A DNA stretch of 64,000 nucleotides from Pseudonocardia sp. SCN 73-27 (GTDB lineage Bacteria > Actinomycetota > Actinomycetes > Mycobacteriales > Pseudonocardiaceae): positions 154,608 to 218,607 of the forward strand of contig MEGH01000008.1 of assembly GCA_001725415.1 (NCBI GenBank), given 5' to 3'. The position numbers and the translations under genes were made by a program. Positions 43,529 to 57,291 of this stretch are shown piece after piece. Position 1 is the stretch's first letter; every line of letters starts with the position of its first letter. The notes under the pieces were generated by a model. The model did not search any database. It was not told where the DNA came from and was given only the letters and a program-made list of their open reading frames with translations.

Positions 43529-44527
43529 TCAGCCGTCCGGATGCAGCAGACCGGCATCCGGCGGATGCCGTGCCCTCCAGACGTCGAGGGTGGGGGAGGG
43601 CCCGTCGGTGTGGAAAAGCTGACGCAGCGTCACGGCGACGGCGGCGCGGGACGCGGGGTCGCGCGGCAGCATCGTGAGGTCGGGGCCGACGCCGGCGCGG
43701 ACGGCGGCGATCGTCATGGCCTTGTGGGCGCCGGCGACGGGGTCGCCGAAGGCGTCGAGCAGCCGTTGGAAGGCGGCGTGGCGGGTCTCGTCGAAGTCGA
43801 CGGCGTGCCCGTTGGCGTTGGTGACCGGGTGGACGGGGTGCAGCGTCATGCAGGTGACGAGCCCGGGCCTGATCGGGGCGGTGCCGGGGTGGGTGTGCTC
43901 GGGGCGCAGCAGCTCGGGGCGGACGTGGGTGTGGGGGCCGTCGGGGGTGTCGGTGCCGGGCTGGGCGATGTGGGCGAACACCTCCACGCGACCGCAGGCG
44001 CCGACGAAGACGCGGTGGGGGCTGCGCCGCACGAGCGTCGTGACGGTCTCGGAGTCGAGCGGTTCGCCGCAGGCGTCCTCGAGCAGGTCGCGCAGGGCCG
44101 GGTCGGCGGTGCGCACGCAGGCGTCGACGGTGGGGATGCCCAGGCCGAGGTCGTAGAGGATCGCGGCCCGGTCGCGAGGGCGGATGGCGTCCTCGTCGGG
44201 CCCGAGGCGGGTGACGACGCTGCGGTTGCCGCGCCGGGCCTCCTCGGCGGGCAGGCAGAACGAGATGGCGTGGTCCCAGCGCCGGCCGGGCCCCGACGGG
44301 GTCTCGTAGGCGACGACCTCCACCCCGGCCGCCCGGTCCAGCCGCACCCCGCCGCGCGCGGTGACGACGCAGCGCGGGCCGCGCGCCGCGGGTTCGGCGG
44401 GGCGTCGTCGGAACTCGGCGATCGCGCCGCCGACGCCGACGGTCCACGTCGCGCCGGCGTCCGCGAGCTGGGACTCGATGAGGTCGGAGACGGGGTCGGC
44501 TGCGTCGGTGGCGTCCGTACCTGCCAT
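43529..44527 (-). CDS. conserved protein of unknown function
   Basis: A 332-residue soluble protein without a signal peptide or membrane helix. Codon use is normal for the genome and the frame is intact. Notable segments are VGVGGAIAEFRRRPAE near the N-terminus, DRAAILYDLGLG and the His-rich THVRPELLRPEHTHPG near residue 185. I recall similar proteins in proteobacteria and actinobacteria annotated only as DUFs; no catalytic motif is certain, though the His cluster could bind metal. It is divergent from the small zinc-ribbon gene. Confidence 0.7.
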   Translation of the reverse strand: MAGTDATDAADPVSDLIESQLADAGATWTVGVGGAIAEFRRRPAEPAARGPRCVVTARGGVRLDRAAGVEVVAYETPSGPGRRWDHAISFCLPAEEARRGNRSVVTRLGPDEDAIRPRDRAAILYDLGLGIPTVDACVRTADPALRDLLEDACGEPLDSETVTTLVRRSPHRVFVGACGRVEVFAHIAQPGTDTPDGPHTHVRPELLRPEHTHPGTAPIRPGLVTCMTLHPVHPVTNANGHAVDFDETRHAAFQRLLDAFGDPVAGAHKAMTIAAVRAGVGPDLTMLPRDPASRAAVAVTLRQLFHTDGPSPTLDVWRARHPPDAGLLHPDG

Positions 44528-45016: not shown

Positions 45017-45877
45017 ATGGGGCCCAGCCAGCGGCCGATGATCGAGCGCGTCGTCGACACCGACCGGTTCCCGGTGGCGATACCGGGTGCGGGCCGCGAC
45101 GCGGTGGTGGCGCGGGTCCGTCGTGACCTCGCCGCCGACGGCTGCAGCGTGCTCCCGGGGTTCGTCCGCCCCGAGGTCCGCGGCGTCCTGGAGGCAGAGG
45201 GCGCGGCCGCGGCGGGGTCCGCCCACCACGACGTCGAGATCGTCAACGTCTACAACACCGACCCGGACCCTGCCCTGCCGCCCGGCCATCCTGCCCGGCG
45301 CACGACCGAGCGCGGCAACGCCTTCGTCGCACGCGATCGTGTCCCCGCCGACGCCGTCGTCCAGCGCCTCTACACCAGCACGGCGCTGCAGGAGTTCGTC
45401 GCCGCCTGCGTGGGCCTGCCGCGGGTGTTCGAGCTCGCCGACCCGCTCGCCGGGCTGACGCTCAACGTCGTCGTCCCCGGCCGCGGGCACCCGTGGCACT
45501 TCGACACCAACGAGTTCACGGTCTCCATGGTGACCCGCGAACCTGAGGCGGGCGGGGTGTTCGAGTACTGCCCGGGCATCCGCTCGGCCGACGACGAGAA
45601 CCTCACCGCTGTGACCGCGGTCCTCGACGGTGACGGCGGCGGCCTCGTGCGCCGGTTGCCGCTGCGCGTCGGTGACCTGCAGATCTTCGCCGGACGCTAT
45701 TCACTGCACCGGGTCACGACGGTCGGCGGCGCCCACGCCCGGCACTCCGCGATCCTCGCCTACAGCGCGCGGCCCGGCGTCGTCGGCGCCGTCACGCGCA
45801 CCCGGCAGCTGTTCGGCCGGGTCACCCCCGCCCACACCGACGCCGACCGCGTCCGTGTCGACTCGCTGATGGACTGA
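45017..45877 (+). CDS. Fe(II)/2-oxoglutarate-dependent oxygenase
   Basis: A 286-residue dioxygenase. The iron triad is His161 and Asp163 (HPWHFDTNEF) with His231 (YSLHRV); Arg242 is placed to bind 2-oxoglutarate. Because the second ligand is Asp and not Gly/Ala, hydroxylation or desaturation is expected, not the halogenation carried out by the related BesD family. ATG at 45017 has an ideal GGAGGAG site. It is the first gene of a tight operon with a carnitine-acyltransferase-like gene (2 bases away) and a methyltransferase, so it probably acts on an amino-acid-derived substrate of that pathway. Trimethyl-lysine or butyrobetaine-like compounds are a speculation. Confidence 0.87.
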   Translation: MGPSQRPMIERVVDTDRFPVAIPGAGRDAVVARVRRDLAADGCSVLPGFVRPEVRGVLEAEGAAAAGSAHHDVEIVNVYNTDPDPALPPGHPARRTTERGNAFVARDRVPADAVVQRLYTSTALQEFVAACVGLPRVFELADPLAGLTLNVVVPGRGHPWHFDTNEFTVSMVTREPEAGGVFEYCPGIRSADDENLTAVTAVLDGDGGGLVRRLPLRVGDLQIFAGRYSLHRVTTVGGAHARHSAILAYSARPGVVGAVTRTRQLFGRVTPAHTDADRVRVDSLMD

Positions 45878-45879
45878 CC

Positions 45880-47640
45880 GTGCGCACATTCGAGGCCGAG
45901 GACGCCCTGCCCCGCGTCCCGTTGCCGACATTGGCCGACAGCTGCTCCCGTTTCCTCGACTGGTGCGCGCCGCTGCTGTCCGCGGCCGAGCGCGTCGCGA
46001 CCCGGGAGGCCGTCGCCGGGTTCGCCCGCCCGGGTGGCGACGGGGAACGGCTGCACGCCGAGCTCGCCCGCTACGACGCCACCCCCGGCGTGCACAGCTG
46101 GCTCGACACGTTCTGGCCCTACCGCTACCTGGGCCGCCGCGACCGGATCGCGCTGAACGCCAACTTCTTCTTCCTGTTCGAGGGGTCGCGGCTCGGGCAG
46201 GTGGACCGGGCGGCGGCGCTGGTCGAGGGGATCGTGGCGTACAAGGCGCGGATCGACGACGAGTCGCTCGAACCCGCACAGGGCCGCGGTGGGCCGCTGT
46301 CGATGGTGCAGCACCGCTATCTGTTCTCCTCGACGCGCATCCCCGGTGTCGACCGCGACTCCGCCCGCACCCCCTACAGCGACGCGCACCCCGGGCCGTC
46401 ACGGGCCCGCCACATCGTGGTCCTGCTGCGCGGCAACGTGTTCTGTCTCGACGTGATCGCCCCCGACGGGCGTCCGCACACCCGGGCCGAGATCGCCGCG
46501 GGGCTGCGCGCCGTGCAGGCGGCCGCGGTGCAGGGCGAGGGCGTCGGCGCGTTGACGACGATGGCGCGCGCGGACTGGGCCCGCGCCCGCGCGCGGCTGC
46601 GCGACCACGACCCGGCCGACGCGGCCGCGTTGGAGACGATCGAGTCGGCGCTGTTCTGCGTGTGCCTGGAGGACGAGATCCCCTCCTCGCCGCTCGCGGC
46701 CTGCGACGCGCTGCTGGCCGGGAACAGTGCGAACCGCTGGTTCGACACGGCCGTCTCGCTGATCGTGTTCGGCGACGGCACCGCCGGCTACAACGGCGAG
46801 CACTGCAACCTCGACGGCACGACGGTGATCGCGCTGCTCGACGCGGTCCTGGCGGCGACGGCCGACCTCGGTCCGGCCCCGGCCGCGGCGGGCGTCCCGG
46901 AGTTCGCGGCCGTGCCCTGGGTGCTCGACGAGACGTTGCGCGCCATCGTCACCGACGCCGCCAAGGCGTTCGCCGACTACGCCGCTGCCACCGCGACGAC
47001 CACCGTCTCGCTCGACTTCGGCAGCGACCGGGCCAAGACCCTCGGCATCTCCCCGGACGCGTTCGCGCAGCTGGTGTTCCAGGTCGCGCACCGGCGTGCG
47101 ACGGGCCGGGTCGGCGCCACCTACGAGTCGATCGCGACCAGGCACTTCCATCACGGCCGGACCGAGGCGATGCGCGTCGTCACCCCCGAGATCGTCGCGT
47201 TCACCGCCGCGATGGACGACCCTTCGGTGCCGGCCCCGGTGCGTCGCGACGCCCTGCGCGCCGCCGCCGATGCGCATGTCCGCCGCGCCCGTGAGTGCCG
47301 GGCCGGGCAGGCCCCCGAGCAGCACCTCTGGGAGCTGCAGATGATCGCGACCCGGCGCGGCGAAGCGTCCCCCGCGCTGTTCGGCTCGCCGGGCTGGCGC
47401 ATCCTGCGCGACGACCACCTCTCCACCAGCTCCGTGCCCTCCCCGCACGTGCGGTACTGGGGGTTCGGGTCGACGAGCACGCACTGCATCGGCGTCGGCT
47501 ACGCCCTGATGCCCACCCGGTTCGACCTGTACCTGAGCACGCCGCGGTCGGTCGCCGCGGCGATGGAGGCGTTCGCCCGGGAGCTGCCCGTGGCGGTCGC
47601 TGAGATGGAAGCCCTGCTGGGGGAGGACAGCGATGGTTGA
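45880..47640 (+). CDS. choline/carnitine O-acyltransferase family protein
   Basis: A 586-residue member of a family that is mainly eukaryotic. PRVPLPTLADSCSRFLDWC is the family N-terminus, YNGEHCNLDG carries the catalytic His308, YESIATRHFHHGRTEAMR matches the CoA/carboxylate region (YESxxTRxFxxGRTE), and LSTSSVP matches the STS motif before the final strand. Length is normal for carnitine acetyltransferases. It would move an acyl group between CoA and a hydroxylated small molecule. GTG at 45880 is two bases after the oxygenase stop, and the gene end overlaps the methyltransferase start by eight bases. The acceptor in this organism is unknown. Confidence 0.88.
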   Translation: MRTFEAEDALPRVPLPTLADSCSRFLDWCAPLLSAAERVATREAVAGFARPGGDGERLHAELARYDATPGVHSWLDTFWPYRYLGRRDRIALNANFFFLFEGSRLGQVDRAAALVEGIVAYKARIDDESLEPAQGRGGPLSMVQHRYLFSSTRIPGVDRDSARTPYSDAHPGPSRARHIVVLLRGNVFCLDVIAPDGRPHTRAEIAAGLRAVQAAAVQGEGVGALTTMARADWARARARLRDHDPADAAALETIESALFCVCLEDEIPSSPLAACDALLAGNSANRWFDTAVSLIVFGDGTAGYNGEHCNLDGTTVIALLDAVLAATADLGPAPAAAGVPEFAAVPWVLDETLRAIVTDAAKAFADYAAATATTTVSLDFGSDRAKTLGISPDAFAQLVFQVAHRRATGRVGATYESIATRHFHHGRTEAMRVVTPEIVAFTAAMDDPSVPAPVRRDALRAAADAHVRRARECRAGQAPEQHLWELQMIATRRGEASPALFGSPGWRILRDDHLSTSSVPSPHVRYWGFGSTSTHCIGVGYALMPTRFDLYLSTPRSVAAAMEAFARELPVAVAEMEALLGEDSDG

Positions 47641-48511
47641 CCCAGGTTCCGGAAAGGCCGACTTCACCGACATCTACTCGCGCCCCGATCCGCGCGCCTA
47701 CTTCACGACGCTCGGCCCGCTCGACTACCAGGTGCCCCGGCACGCGGAACCCGTCGTCGAAGCGGTCCTCGACGCCCGTCCGGGTGCCACCGTGCTCGAC
47801 GTGTGCTGCTCCTACGGCATCAACGCCGCGTTGCTGCGCGGGACCGTCGGCTACGACGACCTCGTCGCCCGCCACACCGACCCCGCCCGCGCCGGCCTGC
47901 CGTCGGCGCAGGTCGTTGCCGACGACGCCGCGTTCCACGCCGCACACCGTCATCCCGCGGGCCCGCACGTCGTCGGGCTGGACGCGTCGGCACCCGCCGT
48001 CGGCTACGGCACCGCGACCGGGCTGCTCGACGCCGGGTTCGCCGAGGACCTCGAGACCACCGAGCCGTCGCCCGCGCTCACCGCGGCGCTCGCCGGCGTC
48101 GACGTGATCGTGTGCACCGGCGGCATCGGCTACGTCGGCCCGACGACGTTCCGGCGCCTCCTCGACGCCGCCGCCCGCCCCGAGCGCATGTTCGTCGTCG
48201 CGTTCGTGCTGCGCGTCTTCGACTACGGCCCGATCGTCGCCGTCCTCGACGGGTTCGGGCTGGTCACCGAACGAATCCCCGCCGCGGCGTGCCGGCAGCG
48301 CCGGTTCGCCGACGCCGACGAACGCGCCGCCGCCTGCCGCGACGTCGCCGCCCGCGGCCTCGACCCCGGCGGGCACGAGGCCGCCGGCTGGTACCACGCC
48401 GACTGCTTCCTCACCCGCCCCGCCGACGCCGCGCCGCCCTTGCCCGGAGTGCTCGTCACAGCGTCGCCGGCAGCCCGTGATCGGCGAAGTGCGACGGCCC
48501 GAACGTCGTGA
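47633..48511 (+). CDS. class I SAM-dependent methyltransferase-like protein
   Basis: A 292-residue Rossmann-fold protein. DARPGATVLDVCCSYGINAALLRG is motif I with an unusual Cys-Cys where Gly is usual; VVGLDASAPAVGYG is motif II and VDVIVCTGGIGYVG a later motif. The ATG at 47633 overlaps the acyltransferase stop and has GGGGGAGGA in front, so translation is coupled. It probably methylates the small molecule handled by the operon. The last 56 bases are antisense to the end of the sigma-factor gene, and the terminal DRRSATARTS has no family character. Confidence 0.8.
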   Translation: MVDPGSGKADFTDIYSRPDPRAYFTTLGPLDYQVPRHAEPVVEAVLDARPGATVLDVCCSYGINAALLRGTVGYDDLVARHTDPARAGLPSAQVVADDAAFHAAHRHPAGPHVVGLDASAPAVGYGTATGLLDAGFAEDLETTEPSPALTAALAGVDVIVCTGGIGYVGPTTFRRLLDAAARPERMFVVAFVLRVFDYGPIVAVLDGFGLVTERIPAAACRQRRFADADERAAACRDVAARGLDPGGHEAAGWYHADCFLTRPADAAPPLPGVLVTASPAARDRRSATARTS

Positions 48512-49391
48512 TCTCGGCGATCTTCCCGTCGACGATCCGCAGCACGTCGAGCTTGAACGGCACGTACTCGTCGGAGCCCGTGACGCGCAGGTAGCTCGCC
48601 GCTGCCGGCATCCGGTTGGCCGCCGTGGGCAGCAGCCGCCACTCGCCGTCGGTCCCCGACGTCGCCCGCTCGAACAGCGGCCACAGCTCGTCGAGGCCGT
48701 TGTACTCCAGCGGGTACGGCGGCATGGTGACGCGGATGTCGTGACGCACGAGCGCCACCATCTCGTCCGGGTCGCCCGTGGTGTGCGCACGGACGAACCG
48801 ATCCAGCAACGCCCGCTCGTCCTCGGTCGGCGACGGCGCCTGCCACGACCCGTGGTCCTCGGGGAGCCGCTCGCGCAGCGTCGCCCGCGCACGCTGCAGC
48901 GCGCTGTTGGCCGCCGGGACCGACATCCCCAGCAGGTCCGCGGTCTCGGCGGCCGACCACTCCAGCACGTCACGCAGCACCAGCACCGCCCGCTGCCGCG
49001 CCGGCAGCAGCTGGATCGCCGCGAGGAACGCCAGCCCGATCGTCTCCCGCGCGATCGCGACGACGTCGGGCCGCTCGGCGCTGGGCGCCACCGCGTCGAG
49101 CAGCTCGTCCGGGTAGGGCTGCAGCCACGTCACCTCCGCCGGGCTCTCCGACTTCGGCGTCGCCCTCTTCCTGCGGCGCAGCACGTCCAGGCACGCGTTC
49201 GTCGCGATCTTGTAGAGCCAGGCCCGCAGGTTCGTCGCCTCGTCGAACGACTCCCGCGCCTTCCAGGCCCGCAGGAACGTCTCCTGCACCAGGTCCTCGG
49301 CCTCGTCGAACGAGCCGAGCATCCGGTAGCAGTGCACGTGCAGCTCGCGGCGGTGCTCCTGCATCCGCGCGGTGAAGGCGTCGTCGCTCAT
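48456..49391 (-). CDS. ECF RNA polymerase sigma factor with SnoaL-like C-terminus (SigG type)
   Basis: A 311-residue ECF sigma factor. Region 2 is at about 10-75 (HVHCYRMLGSFDEAEDLVQETFLRAWK), region 4 at about 130-185 (LPARQRAVLVLRDVLEWSAAETADLLG), and a SnoaL/NTF2-like domain at about 195-311 (RFVRAHTTGDPDEMVALV). Such C-terminal domains replace a separate anti-sigma factor in SigG/SigJ-type proteins. It follows the DUF899 gene by 43 bases on the same strand, so they may be co-transcribed. No anti-sigma gene is adjacent. Convergent 56-base overlap with the methyltransferase. Confidence 0.9.
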   Translation of the reverse strand: MSDDAFTARMQEHRRELHVHCYRMLGSFDEAEDLVQETFLRAWKARESFDEATNLRAWLYKIATNACLDVLRRRKRATPKSESPAEVTWLQPYPDELLDAVAPSAERPDVVAIARETIGLAFLAAIQLLPARQRAVLVLRDVLEWSAAETADLLGMSVPAANSALQRARATLRERLPEDHGSWQAPSPTEDERALLDRFVRAHTTGDPDEMVALVRHDIRVTMPPYPLEYNGLDELWPLFERATSGTDGEWRLLPTAANRMPAAASYLRVTGSDEYVPFKLDVLRIVDGKIAEITTFGPSHFADHGLPATL

Positions 49392-56971: not shown

Positions 56972-57045
56972 TCGGGGTGGCGGGATTTGAACCCACGGCC
57001 CCTCGCTCCCAAAGCGAGTGCGCTACCAAGCTGCGCCACACCCCG
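56972..57045 (-). tRNA. tRNA-Pro (anticodon TGG)
   Basis: A 74-base cloverleaf on the minus strand. The acceptor arm is CGGGGTG/CACCCCG with discriminator A. The anticodon loop TTTGGGA lies in the stem CTCGC/GCGAG, and the T arm has GGTTCAAAT. CCA is not encoded. Confidence 0.95.
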
Positions 57046-57217: not shown

Positions 57218-57291
57218 GCGGGCGTAGCTCAATGGTAGAGCCCTAGTCTTCCAAACTAGCTACGCGGGTTCGATTCCCGTCGCCCGCTCCA
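57218..57291 (+). tRNA. tRNA-Gly (anticodon TCC)
   Basis: Acceptor arm GCGGGCG/CGCCCGC, D arm with GCTCAATGGTAGAGC, anticodon loop CTTCCAA in stem CTAGT/ACTAG, T loop TTCGATT. The discriminator is T and CCA is encoded in the DNA. It borders a region of decayed mobile DNA. Confidence 0.95.

Follow-up and report, generated by a model that had tools for sequence, protein, structure and literature searches.

Acyl esters of onium alcohols, such as acyl-carnitine and acetylcholine, are central in animals, and the hydroxylases of eukaryotic carnitine synthesis, TMLH and BBOX, are of the TauD type. In carnitine acetyltransferase (CrAT, PDB 1nm8), a member of the choline/carnitine acyltransferase family PF00755, Arg518 binds the carnitine carboxylate, and the preference for carnitine or choline is set by positions 106, 465, 467 and 518. 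Position 564 gates the acyl tunnel, which a Gly opens in the long-chain enzymes CPT and COT; choline acetyltransferase has Val and Asn at positions 465 and 518. The 64,000-nucleotide stretch of Pseudonocardia sp. SCN 73-27 analyzed here (the window) carries an operon of three genes, which code for an Fe(II)/2-oxoglutarate (2OG) oxygenase, a PF00755 acyltransferase (cat) and a class I S-adenosylmethionine (SAM) methyltransferase (MT). The conserved unit is the pair of oxygenase and cat, with the MT optional, and the acceptor pocket of cat has been rebuilt. A search of the open-licence literature found no study of actinobacterial PF00755 enzymes or of the oxygenase-cat combination.

The linkage of the three genes was surveyed in a family sample of 150 Pseudonocardiaceae genomes, the window's own genome included, and in a scan of GTDB with the cat alignment, which returned 435 stretches encoding relatives; the best 80 of these 435 are the named loci, and they overlap with the family sample. 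Operon genes were placed by BLAST or hidden Markov model (HMM) because the simple gene caller, which scores guanine-cytosine (GC) content at third positions, mis-called some loci (L037, for example) and failed around the oxygenase of L197. In the family sample, cat was found in 51 genomes and the oxygenase in 49, all of them among the 51 with cat and none among the 99 without it (Fisher p 1.3e-37, a value that ignores phylogeny; the exceptions are G040 and G074). The oxygenase gene adjoins cat in all 80 named loci, two of which are divergent and one of which is cut by a contig end, and chance adjacency was rejected on these two counts. The named loci come from Pseudonocardia, Actinomadura, Streptomyces, Saccharopolyspora, Amycolatopsis, Nocardia, Frankia, Salinispora and other genera, and many soil actinobacteria carry this small operon. 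Where a family genome has cat but lacks the oxygenase (loci L047 and L179), cat lies directly behind an APC-family amino-acid permease.

The MT is less tightly linked. It adjoins the pair in 63 of the 80 named loci, 50 times in the order oxygenase-MT-cat and 13 times in the order seen in the window, and it was found in 38 of the 51 cat-positive and six of the 99 cat-negative family genomes (one of the six as fragments). A strict triad was rejected, since 28 of 115 cats have no MT next to them; of 16 family genomes checked for it, two had it adjacent, one elsewhere (G030) and 13 not at all. On the tree of the 115 cats the presence of an adjacent MT changes at least 12 times, against a mean of 25 for shuffled labels. 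Mirror-tree correlations, which partly reflect species phylogeny, were 0.87 for cat and oxygenase (87 loci), 0.87 for cat and MT, and 0.81 for oxygenase and MT (61 loci). In one locus (L036) the MT and cat form a single open frame of 899 amino acids, either a genuine fusion or the result of losing a stop codon. The expectation raised by the initial annotation, that all three genes would be conserved together, is supported, with the qualification that the conserved unit is the pair of oxygenase and cat and that the MT comes and goes.

Across a phylum sample of 296 genomes, PF00755 was found in five, one of them with a fragment of 100 amino acids, and in none of 14 control genomes. Cat of the operon type occurs in three of the 296 (G000, G199 and G384), each time with the oxygenase and the MT; 11 further genomes have oxygenase relatives and no full cat (in G359 the 100-amino-acid fragment lies elsewhere); MT relatives without cat were found in a further 14. 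The statement that this acyltransferase family is rare in bacteria was examined in actinobacteria only: five genomes of the phylum sample have PF00755, and 51 of 150 in the window's own family have cat. A search of plasmids with cat gave no match. In 100 loci searched for a fourth partner, the families other than the three genes that were present in at least eight were confined to Actinomadura or Streptomyces, and the commonest neighbor shared across genera was an AMP-binding ligase in seven; a fourth conserved gene was rejected on this count. It had also been stated that no transporter or regulator is attached to the operon, and none recurs beside it across genera in these loci.

The second line of evidence is the acceptor pocket of cat. 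The protein matches PF00755 at 505.6 bits (cut-off 22.3) over model positions 1-572 of 574 and carries His308, so that its description as a full-length choline/carnitine acyltransferase with a catalytic histidine is correct. Positions of CrAT were transferred through a pairwise alignment, and the numbering was checked by 16 CrAT letters, all 16 of which matched the expected residues. The survey comprised 117 rows. Besides the window, these are 115 distinct operon-type cats (one from the window's own locus, and one, that of L047, lacking an oxygenase) and, as outgroup, L053, a distant actinobacterial cat from a genome (G288) in which no oxygenase match was found. Catalytic H308 (CrAT His343), S515 and T516 are present in all 117 rows and S517 in 116, with Thr in the outgroup. 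The equivalents of CrAT Tyr107, Tyr452, Thr465, Ser552, Thr553 and the onium-facing Phe566 are invariant, as are Asp312 (CrAT Glu347) and Thr532 (CrAT Val569).

Four positions have changed. CrAT Arg518, which is also Arg in CPT2 and L053, is Gln481 in 115 of 115 operon-type cats, and CrAT Ala106 is Arg82 in the same 115; CrAT Thr467 is Ala430 in every one, and CrAT Met564, a Gly in CPT2, is Phe or Trp in all (Trp in the window). The outgroup has Gly, Arg, Cys and Ala at CrAT 106, 518, 467 and 564, respectively. One of the two patterns used in the GTDB scan, the peptide GRTEAMRV, favors Ala430 among the named loci, whereas Arg82 and Gln481 lie outside both patterns; all 32 cats found without the patterns carry Arg82, Gln481 and Ala430. 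The cat of L047 keeps the operon-type signature. With Thr428 at CrAT 465 and Gln481 at CrAT 518, the operon-type cats also lack the residues of choline acetyltransferase. By the residues tested, cat is a PF00755 member of neither the carnitine type nor the long-chain type. Because Arg518 has become Gln and a new Arg has entered the pocket, the acceptor is probably not carnitine, and because a Phe or Trp stands at the position where the acyl tunnel would open, the acyl group is probably short; cat is thus predicted to be a short-acyl O-acyltransferase. The simplest reading of the moved positive charge is an anionic acceptor that is placed differently from carnitine while the onium side is kept, with Arg82 as the putative carboxylate binder.

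The oxygenase matches the Pfam family HalD (PF23169) at 39.4 bits against a cut-off of 26; no TauD-type Pfam family was matched, and the only other match was WelO5 below threshold (E up to 0.1). It had been annotated as an HxD-type Fe(II)/2OG oxygenase, and the iron site agrees with this: H161, D163 and H231 are invariant in 23 aligned oxygenases, with the motif H161-F162-D163 in the window. The AlphaFold model (mean pLDDT 89.6) gave HalB, HalD, BesD, HalA and the BesD hydroxylase homolog as its best Foldseek matches (E 6.5e-15 to 3.3e-13, TM 0.65-0.70 by target length, identity 14-20%). Identity as a halogenase was rejected on the HxD iron site, since HalB and HalD have HxG. The protein is a BesD/HalD-fold Fe(II)/2OG enzyme with the iron site of a hydroxylase, and it is predicted to be a hydroxylase of a methylated zwitterion.

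For the MT, Pfam gave only sub-threshold methyltransferase matches, and of two PDB sequence searches one gave no match and the other returned only weak or repeat-protein matches. Its AlphaFold model (mean pLDDT 88.0) has the class I SAM methyltransferase fold with no clear nearest type, and the top Foldseek rows are N-, S- and C-methyltransferases with low TM. The Cys-Cys form of motif I to which attention had been drawn is present in the window and proved to be a local variant, found in 13 of 87 MTs, mostly from Pseudonocardia, against D-[IVL]-G-C-S-Y-G in 67. MT loci in five of the six cat-negative family genomes with a match showed no clear partner when inspected by eye, and plasmid-borne relatives showed no shared partner, several of those records being unannotated. 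Eight of 19 non-operon loci of MT relatives were examined, and in one of the eight (L205) the MT relative lies beside a complete OpuAC-type betaine ABC transporter, which may be a weak hint at onium compounds.

The gene neighborhoods of oxygenase relatives bear on the substrate. The nearest plasmid homolog, from Caballeronia sp. SBC2 (L137), is 47.5% identical to the window's oxygenase and stands in the order LysR regulator, oxygenase, DddP-like M24 enzyme; the genes of a betaine-type transporter (OpuAC binding protein, permease, ATPase) follow. In Pseudomonas sp. MPC6 (L138) the oxygenase adjoins a DddP-like M24 enzyme, with an OpuAC protein 7.6 kb away. The M24 proteins score 240-402 bits with NCBIfam NF043017 (L137, L138, L188, L189 and L191) and 314 bits (L151) against a cut-off of 600, and for this reason they are named DddP-like and not DddP. 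A Sinorhizobium M24 protein that is 45.5% identical to that of Caballeronia lies beside an OpuAC transporter, with no oxygenase among its annotated neighbors. In Mesorhizobium sp. WSM1497 the oxygenase stands with an MttB-family protein, an Ldh-type dehydrogenase and a Rieske enzyme, the nearest PDB match of which is carnitine monooxygenase and which falls below the NCBIfam cut-off for glycine betaine monooxygenase. In Rhodobacteraceae M382 and Alisedimentitalea (Rhodobacterales) it stands with an ABC transporter, an MttB-family protein and a flavin adenine dinucleotide (FAD)-dependent oxidoreductase. An Ensifer homolog has an unspecific ABC transporter as its neighbor. In a midpoint-rooted tree with eight operon rows, those of 12 chosen ones that were present after deduplication, the operon oxygenases form one group (100/99), which is joined at 98/96 with those of Caballeronia L137, L188 and L191; these three group together (93/86). 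The recurrent pair of oxygenase and DddP-like M24 enzyme is possibly an undescribed module for betaine or sulfonium breakdown.

Since an enzyme that can make a hydroxyl lies beside a member of a family that acylates hydroxyls, the simplest reading is hydroxylation followed by acylation. We propose that the product of the operon is a short-chain ester, with acetyl as the likeliest acyl group, of a methylated zwitterion other than carnitine (a betaine or a close analog) that has been hydroxylated, and we put this just short of an even chance. The MT, where present, would make or complete the methylated onium group, and the methylated zwitterion would otherwise come from elsewhere; the oxygenase would hydroxylate an unactivated carbon of the zwitterion, and cat would move a short acyl group from coenzyme A (CoA) onto the new hydroxyl with His308 as general base. 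Gene order, catalytic residues, the oxygenase/cat linkage, the optional MT, the changed pocket residues and the bulky residue at the acyl-tunnel position can be read from the sequence itself. The near-obligate linkage makes it likely that the hydroxyl made by the oxygenase is the one that cat esterifies. The neighborhoods of the sister group and of other oxygenase relatives would suggest a betaine-type substrate, at a chance of about one in two, and if cat does acylate oxygen, acetyl is the acyl group with a chance of about two in three. We further infer that the oxidation is a hydroxylation and no other, that the donor is an acetyl donor, that the steps follow this order, that the MT methylates N (or S), and that the pathway builds its compound up and does not break it down. 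The suggestion of a bacterial acyl-betaine gains support from the betaine-type neighborhoods of several oxygenase relatives and one MT relative. The acceptor pocket is not of the carnitine type, so that "acyl-carnitine-like" should better be put as an ester of a different hydroxylated zwitterion. Delta-valerobetaine, a five-carbon betaine, and its hydroxylated form "homocarnitine" are reported (PMC11773067) and would be a natural candidate for a pocket with a moved arginine. More tentative, and clearly below an even chance, is the broader proposal of an undescribed class of small molecules, made in what are probably hundreds of species of actinobacteria by a BesD-fold hydroxylase and a cat with a relocated carboxylate-binding arginine. 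These would be O-acyl (probably O-acetyl) esters, and the esterified alcohol would be a hydroxylated betaine other than carnitine or a hydroxylated sulfonium zwitterion.

Several observations weigh against the proposed betaine ester. The 28 cats without an adjacent MT mean that the methylated substrate must there come from elsewhere, no betaine transporter recurs beside the operon in the 100 loci, and the fold search leaves N-, S-, O- and C-methyltransferases unseparated, with VIA-align rows tied among types. The structures of HalA, HalB, HalD and the hydroxylase homolog were solved with lysine or ornithine. It had been predicted beforehand that 11 actinobacterial oxygenase relatives without cat would show betaine-type neighbors; the comparison of neighbors used BLAST against nine reference proteins and Pfam on ten selected proteins, it did not extend to BCCT transporters, and contig ends truncate several of the loci. 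Three of the 11 (L188, L189 and L191) have a DddP-like M24 enzyme next to the oxygenase, four stand instead, unpredicted, beside the formaldehyde-activating enzyme Fae (L192, L193, L195 and L196), and four have neither (L187, L190, L194 and L197, with a binding protein and a luciferase-like enzyme at L194). The Rieske, MttB and M24 neighbors all lie below the NCBIfam cut-offs for named enzymes. The relatives that point to betaines share only about 34-50% identity, so that the recruitment of cat may have brought a change of substrate. A Pantoea homolog stands with LysR, DUF2817, arginase, citrulline hydrolase and amino-acid transport genes, and the Enterobacter and Acinetobacter loci share regulator, DUF2817 and binding-protein neighbors with one another, and DUF2817 and the binding protein with Pantoea as well. 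These arginine-type and Fae pairings of more distant relatives keep other readings open.

The acceptor may instead be a free amino acid that carries a hydroxyl, such as one of the hydroxylysine or hydroxyornithine type, with the oxygenase acting in the manner of BesD-family lysine hydroxylases, cat esterifying the side-chain hydroxyl and the MT methylating N, O or the carboxylate later. This is unlikely, although the fold match to HalA, HalB, HalD, BesD and the lysine hydroxylase, most of them solved with lysine or ornithine, agrees with it, as do the arginine/citrulline-type context in Pantoea, the amino-acid permease in front of the oxygenase-less cats and the dispensable MT. Clear amino-acid genes were seen only at Pantoea among the Ensifer, Acinetobacter and Pantoea loci, and another tree places the Pantoea, Acinetobacter and Enterobacter oxygenases outside the group that holds the operon oxygenases and most of those in M24 or MttB contexts (97/96; for Pantoea and Acinetobacter this is an open fork, 89/93, in the midpoint-rooted tree). 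The invariant onium-facing Phe of cat and the nearer relatives, with a betaine-type transporter and DddP-like enzymes, also speak for an onium substrate over an amino acid. It is improbable that the oxygenase is an oxidative N-demethylase that releases formaldehyde, with cat loading or unloading the acyl group on an existing alcohol in an operon for acyl-betaine breakdown. MttB-family, Rieske and DAO-type enzymes, which are known in demethylation or betaine breakdown, do stand beside other relatives, and the four Fae neighbors suggest methylated amines and a 2OG-dependent demethylation that feeds formaldehyde into one-carbon (C1) metabolism. However, the Fae-associated oxygenases form a group of their own (100/99), apart from the operon and M24 group, no cross-genus family besides the three genes exceeds seven of 100 loci, and a demethylase next to a methyltransferase would pair opposing activities.

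A true carnitine module, in which the oxygenase turns gamma-butyrobetaine into carnitine and cat makes acetyl- or acyl-carnitine, is still less probable. Membership in PF00755 with most acceptor-site residues kept, the same reaction types in eukaryotic carnitine synthesis, and the resemblance of one relative's Rieske neighbor to carnitine monooxygenase argue for it, but the exchanges at CrAT 518 and 106 are found in 115 of 115 cats while the distant L053 keeps its Arg, and the oxygenase matches HalD and no TauD-type family. Least probable of all is a tailoring cassette whose substrate is carrier-bound or a larger natural product, cat serving to load the product onto a carrier or release it. 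Such pathways abound in actinobacteria, fungal megasynthases are known to contain PF00755, and the carnitine-acyltransferase domain of a fungal polyketide synthase reportedly moves the product off or onto its carrier in this way. Against it, neither a megasynthase nor any other fourth gene recurs across genera in the 100 loci, the AMP-binding ligase being the most frequent at seven, and the BesD/HalD relatives act on free small molecules.

The initial annotation gave three genes with 2-base spacing and an 8-base overlap, and the open reading frame (ORF) list agrees with it, with 2 bases between the oxygenase and cat and 8 bases shared by cat and the MT. An NCBIfam scan of the three proteins matched no families, and a promoter and terminator scan found no promoters and one terminator-like site, against 0.8 in shuffled sequence. 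The MT gene and a sigma factor gene on the opposite strand share 56 bases at their 3' ends. Two tRNAs were the sole Rfam matches in the window.

Table. Features of the window and of compared loci; a locus designation precedes the coordinates where a feature lies outside the window.
Feature	Coordinates	Strand	Remarks
Oxygenase ORF	45017-45877	+	286 amino acids; HalD PF23169 E 6e-10; H161, D163, H231
cat ORF	45880-47640	+	586 amino acids, GTG start; PF00755 E 2.4e-151; catalytic H308; R82/Q481 pocket
MT ORF	47633-48511	+	292 amino acids; class I SAM methyltransferase by alignment and AlphaFold model fold; accessory
DUF6925 protein, family of unknown function	43529-44527	-	Pfam; upstream of operon
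Extracytoplasmic function (ECF)-type sigma factor with C-terminal SnoaL-like domain	48456-49391	-	Pfam
tRNA	56972-57045	-	Rfam
tRNA	57218-57288	+	Rfam
Distant actinobacterial cat (L053 and L180, same gene)	L180:6504-8204	-	31% identity; carnitine-type Arg518 kept
MT and cat in one open frame	L036:8019-10718		
cat behind APC-family permease	L047:7636-10789		
cat behind APC-family permease	L179:5594-8741		
MT relative beside OpuAC-type transporter	L205:2592-7554		
Oxygenase and DddP-like M24 pair	L188:7309-9386		
Oxygenase and DddP-like M24 pair	L189:8372-10659		
Oxygenase and DddP-like M24 pair	L191:8447-10484		
Oxygenase and DddP-like M24 pair	L137:8992-11091		
Oxygenase and DddP-like M24 pair	L138:8971-11205		
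HalD-type oxygenase directly beside Fae	L192:2280-3610		
HalD-type oxygenase directly beside Fae	L193:5535-6953		
HalD-type oxygenase directly beside Fae	L195:8087-9417		
HalD-type oxygenase directly beside Fae	L196:7687-9011		

If the proposed betaine-type ester is correct, bacteria would have their own counterpart of acyl-carnitine or acetylcholine, built on a different acceptor. Actinobacteria would gain a new metabolite (an osmolyte, acyl buffer or signal), and the operon would supply two enzymes of new specificity, a hydroxylase and an acyltransferase. The exchange of the arginine is also a natural experiment on how enzymes with the carnitine acyltransferase fold choose their acceptor, and the clear pocket signature and the near-fixed partner that should make the acceptor render the substrate question testable.

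Compared with CrAT and PF00755, cat has the full-length sequence match, the catalytic His, the STS loop and the equivalents of Tyr107, Tyr452, Thr465 and Phe566, and it differs in Arg518/Gln481, Ala106/Arg82, Thr467/Ala430, Val569/Thr532 and Met564/Trp (window) or Phe; unlike CrAT, it nearly always has a partner oxygenase in a bacterial operon. The oxygenase shares its fold and the Pfam family HalD with the BesD/HalD halogenases and their hydroxylase homolog (PDB 6nie, 7u6h, 7u6j and 7jsd), and the HxD motif with that homolog, whereas its identity to them is low and it is linked to an acyltransferase. The operon of Caballeronia sp. SBC2 has an oxygenase with the same iron motif that groups with the operon clade, but an M24 enzyme, a LysR regulator and a transporter take the place of the acyltransferase and methyltransferase, and that operon looks catabolic. 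The eukaryotic carnitine route (TMLH, BBOX and CrAT) uses the same types of reaction, namely methylation, 2OG-dependent hydroxylation and O-acylation, while the operon has an oxygenase of another family, a changed acceptor pocket and no aldolase or aldehyde dehydrogenase step.

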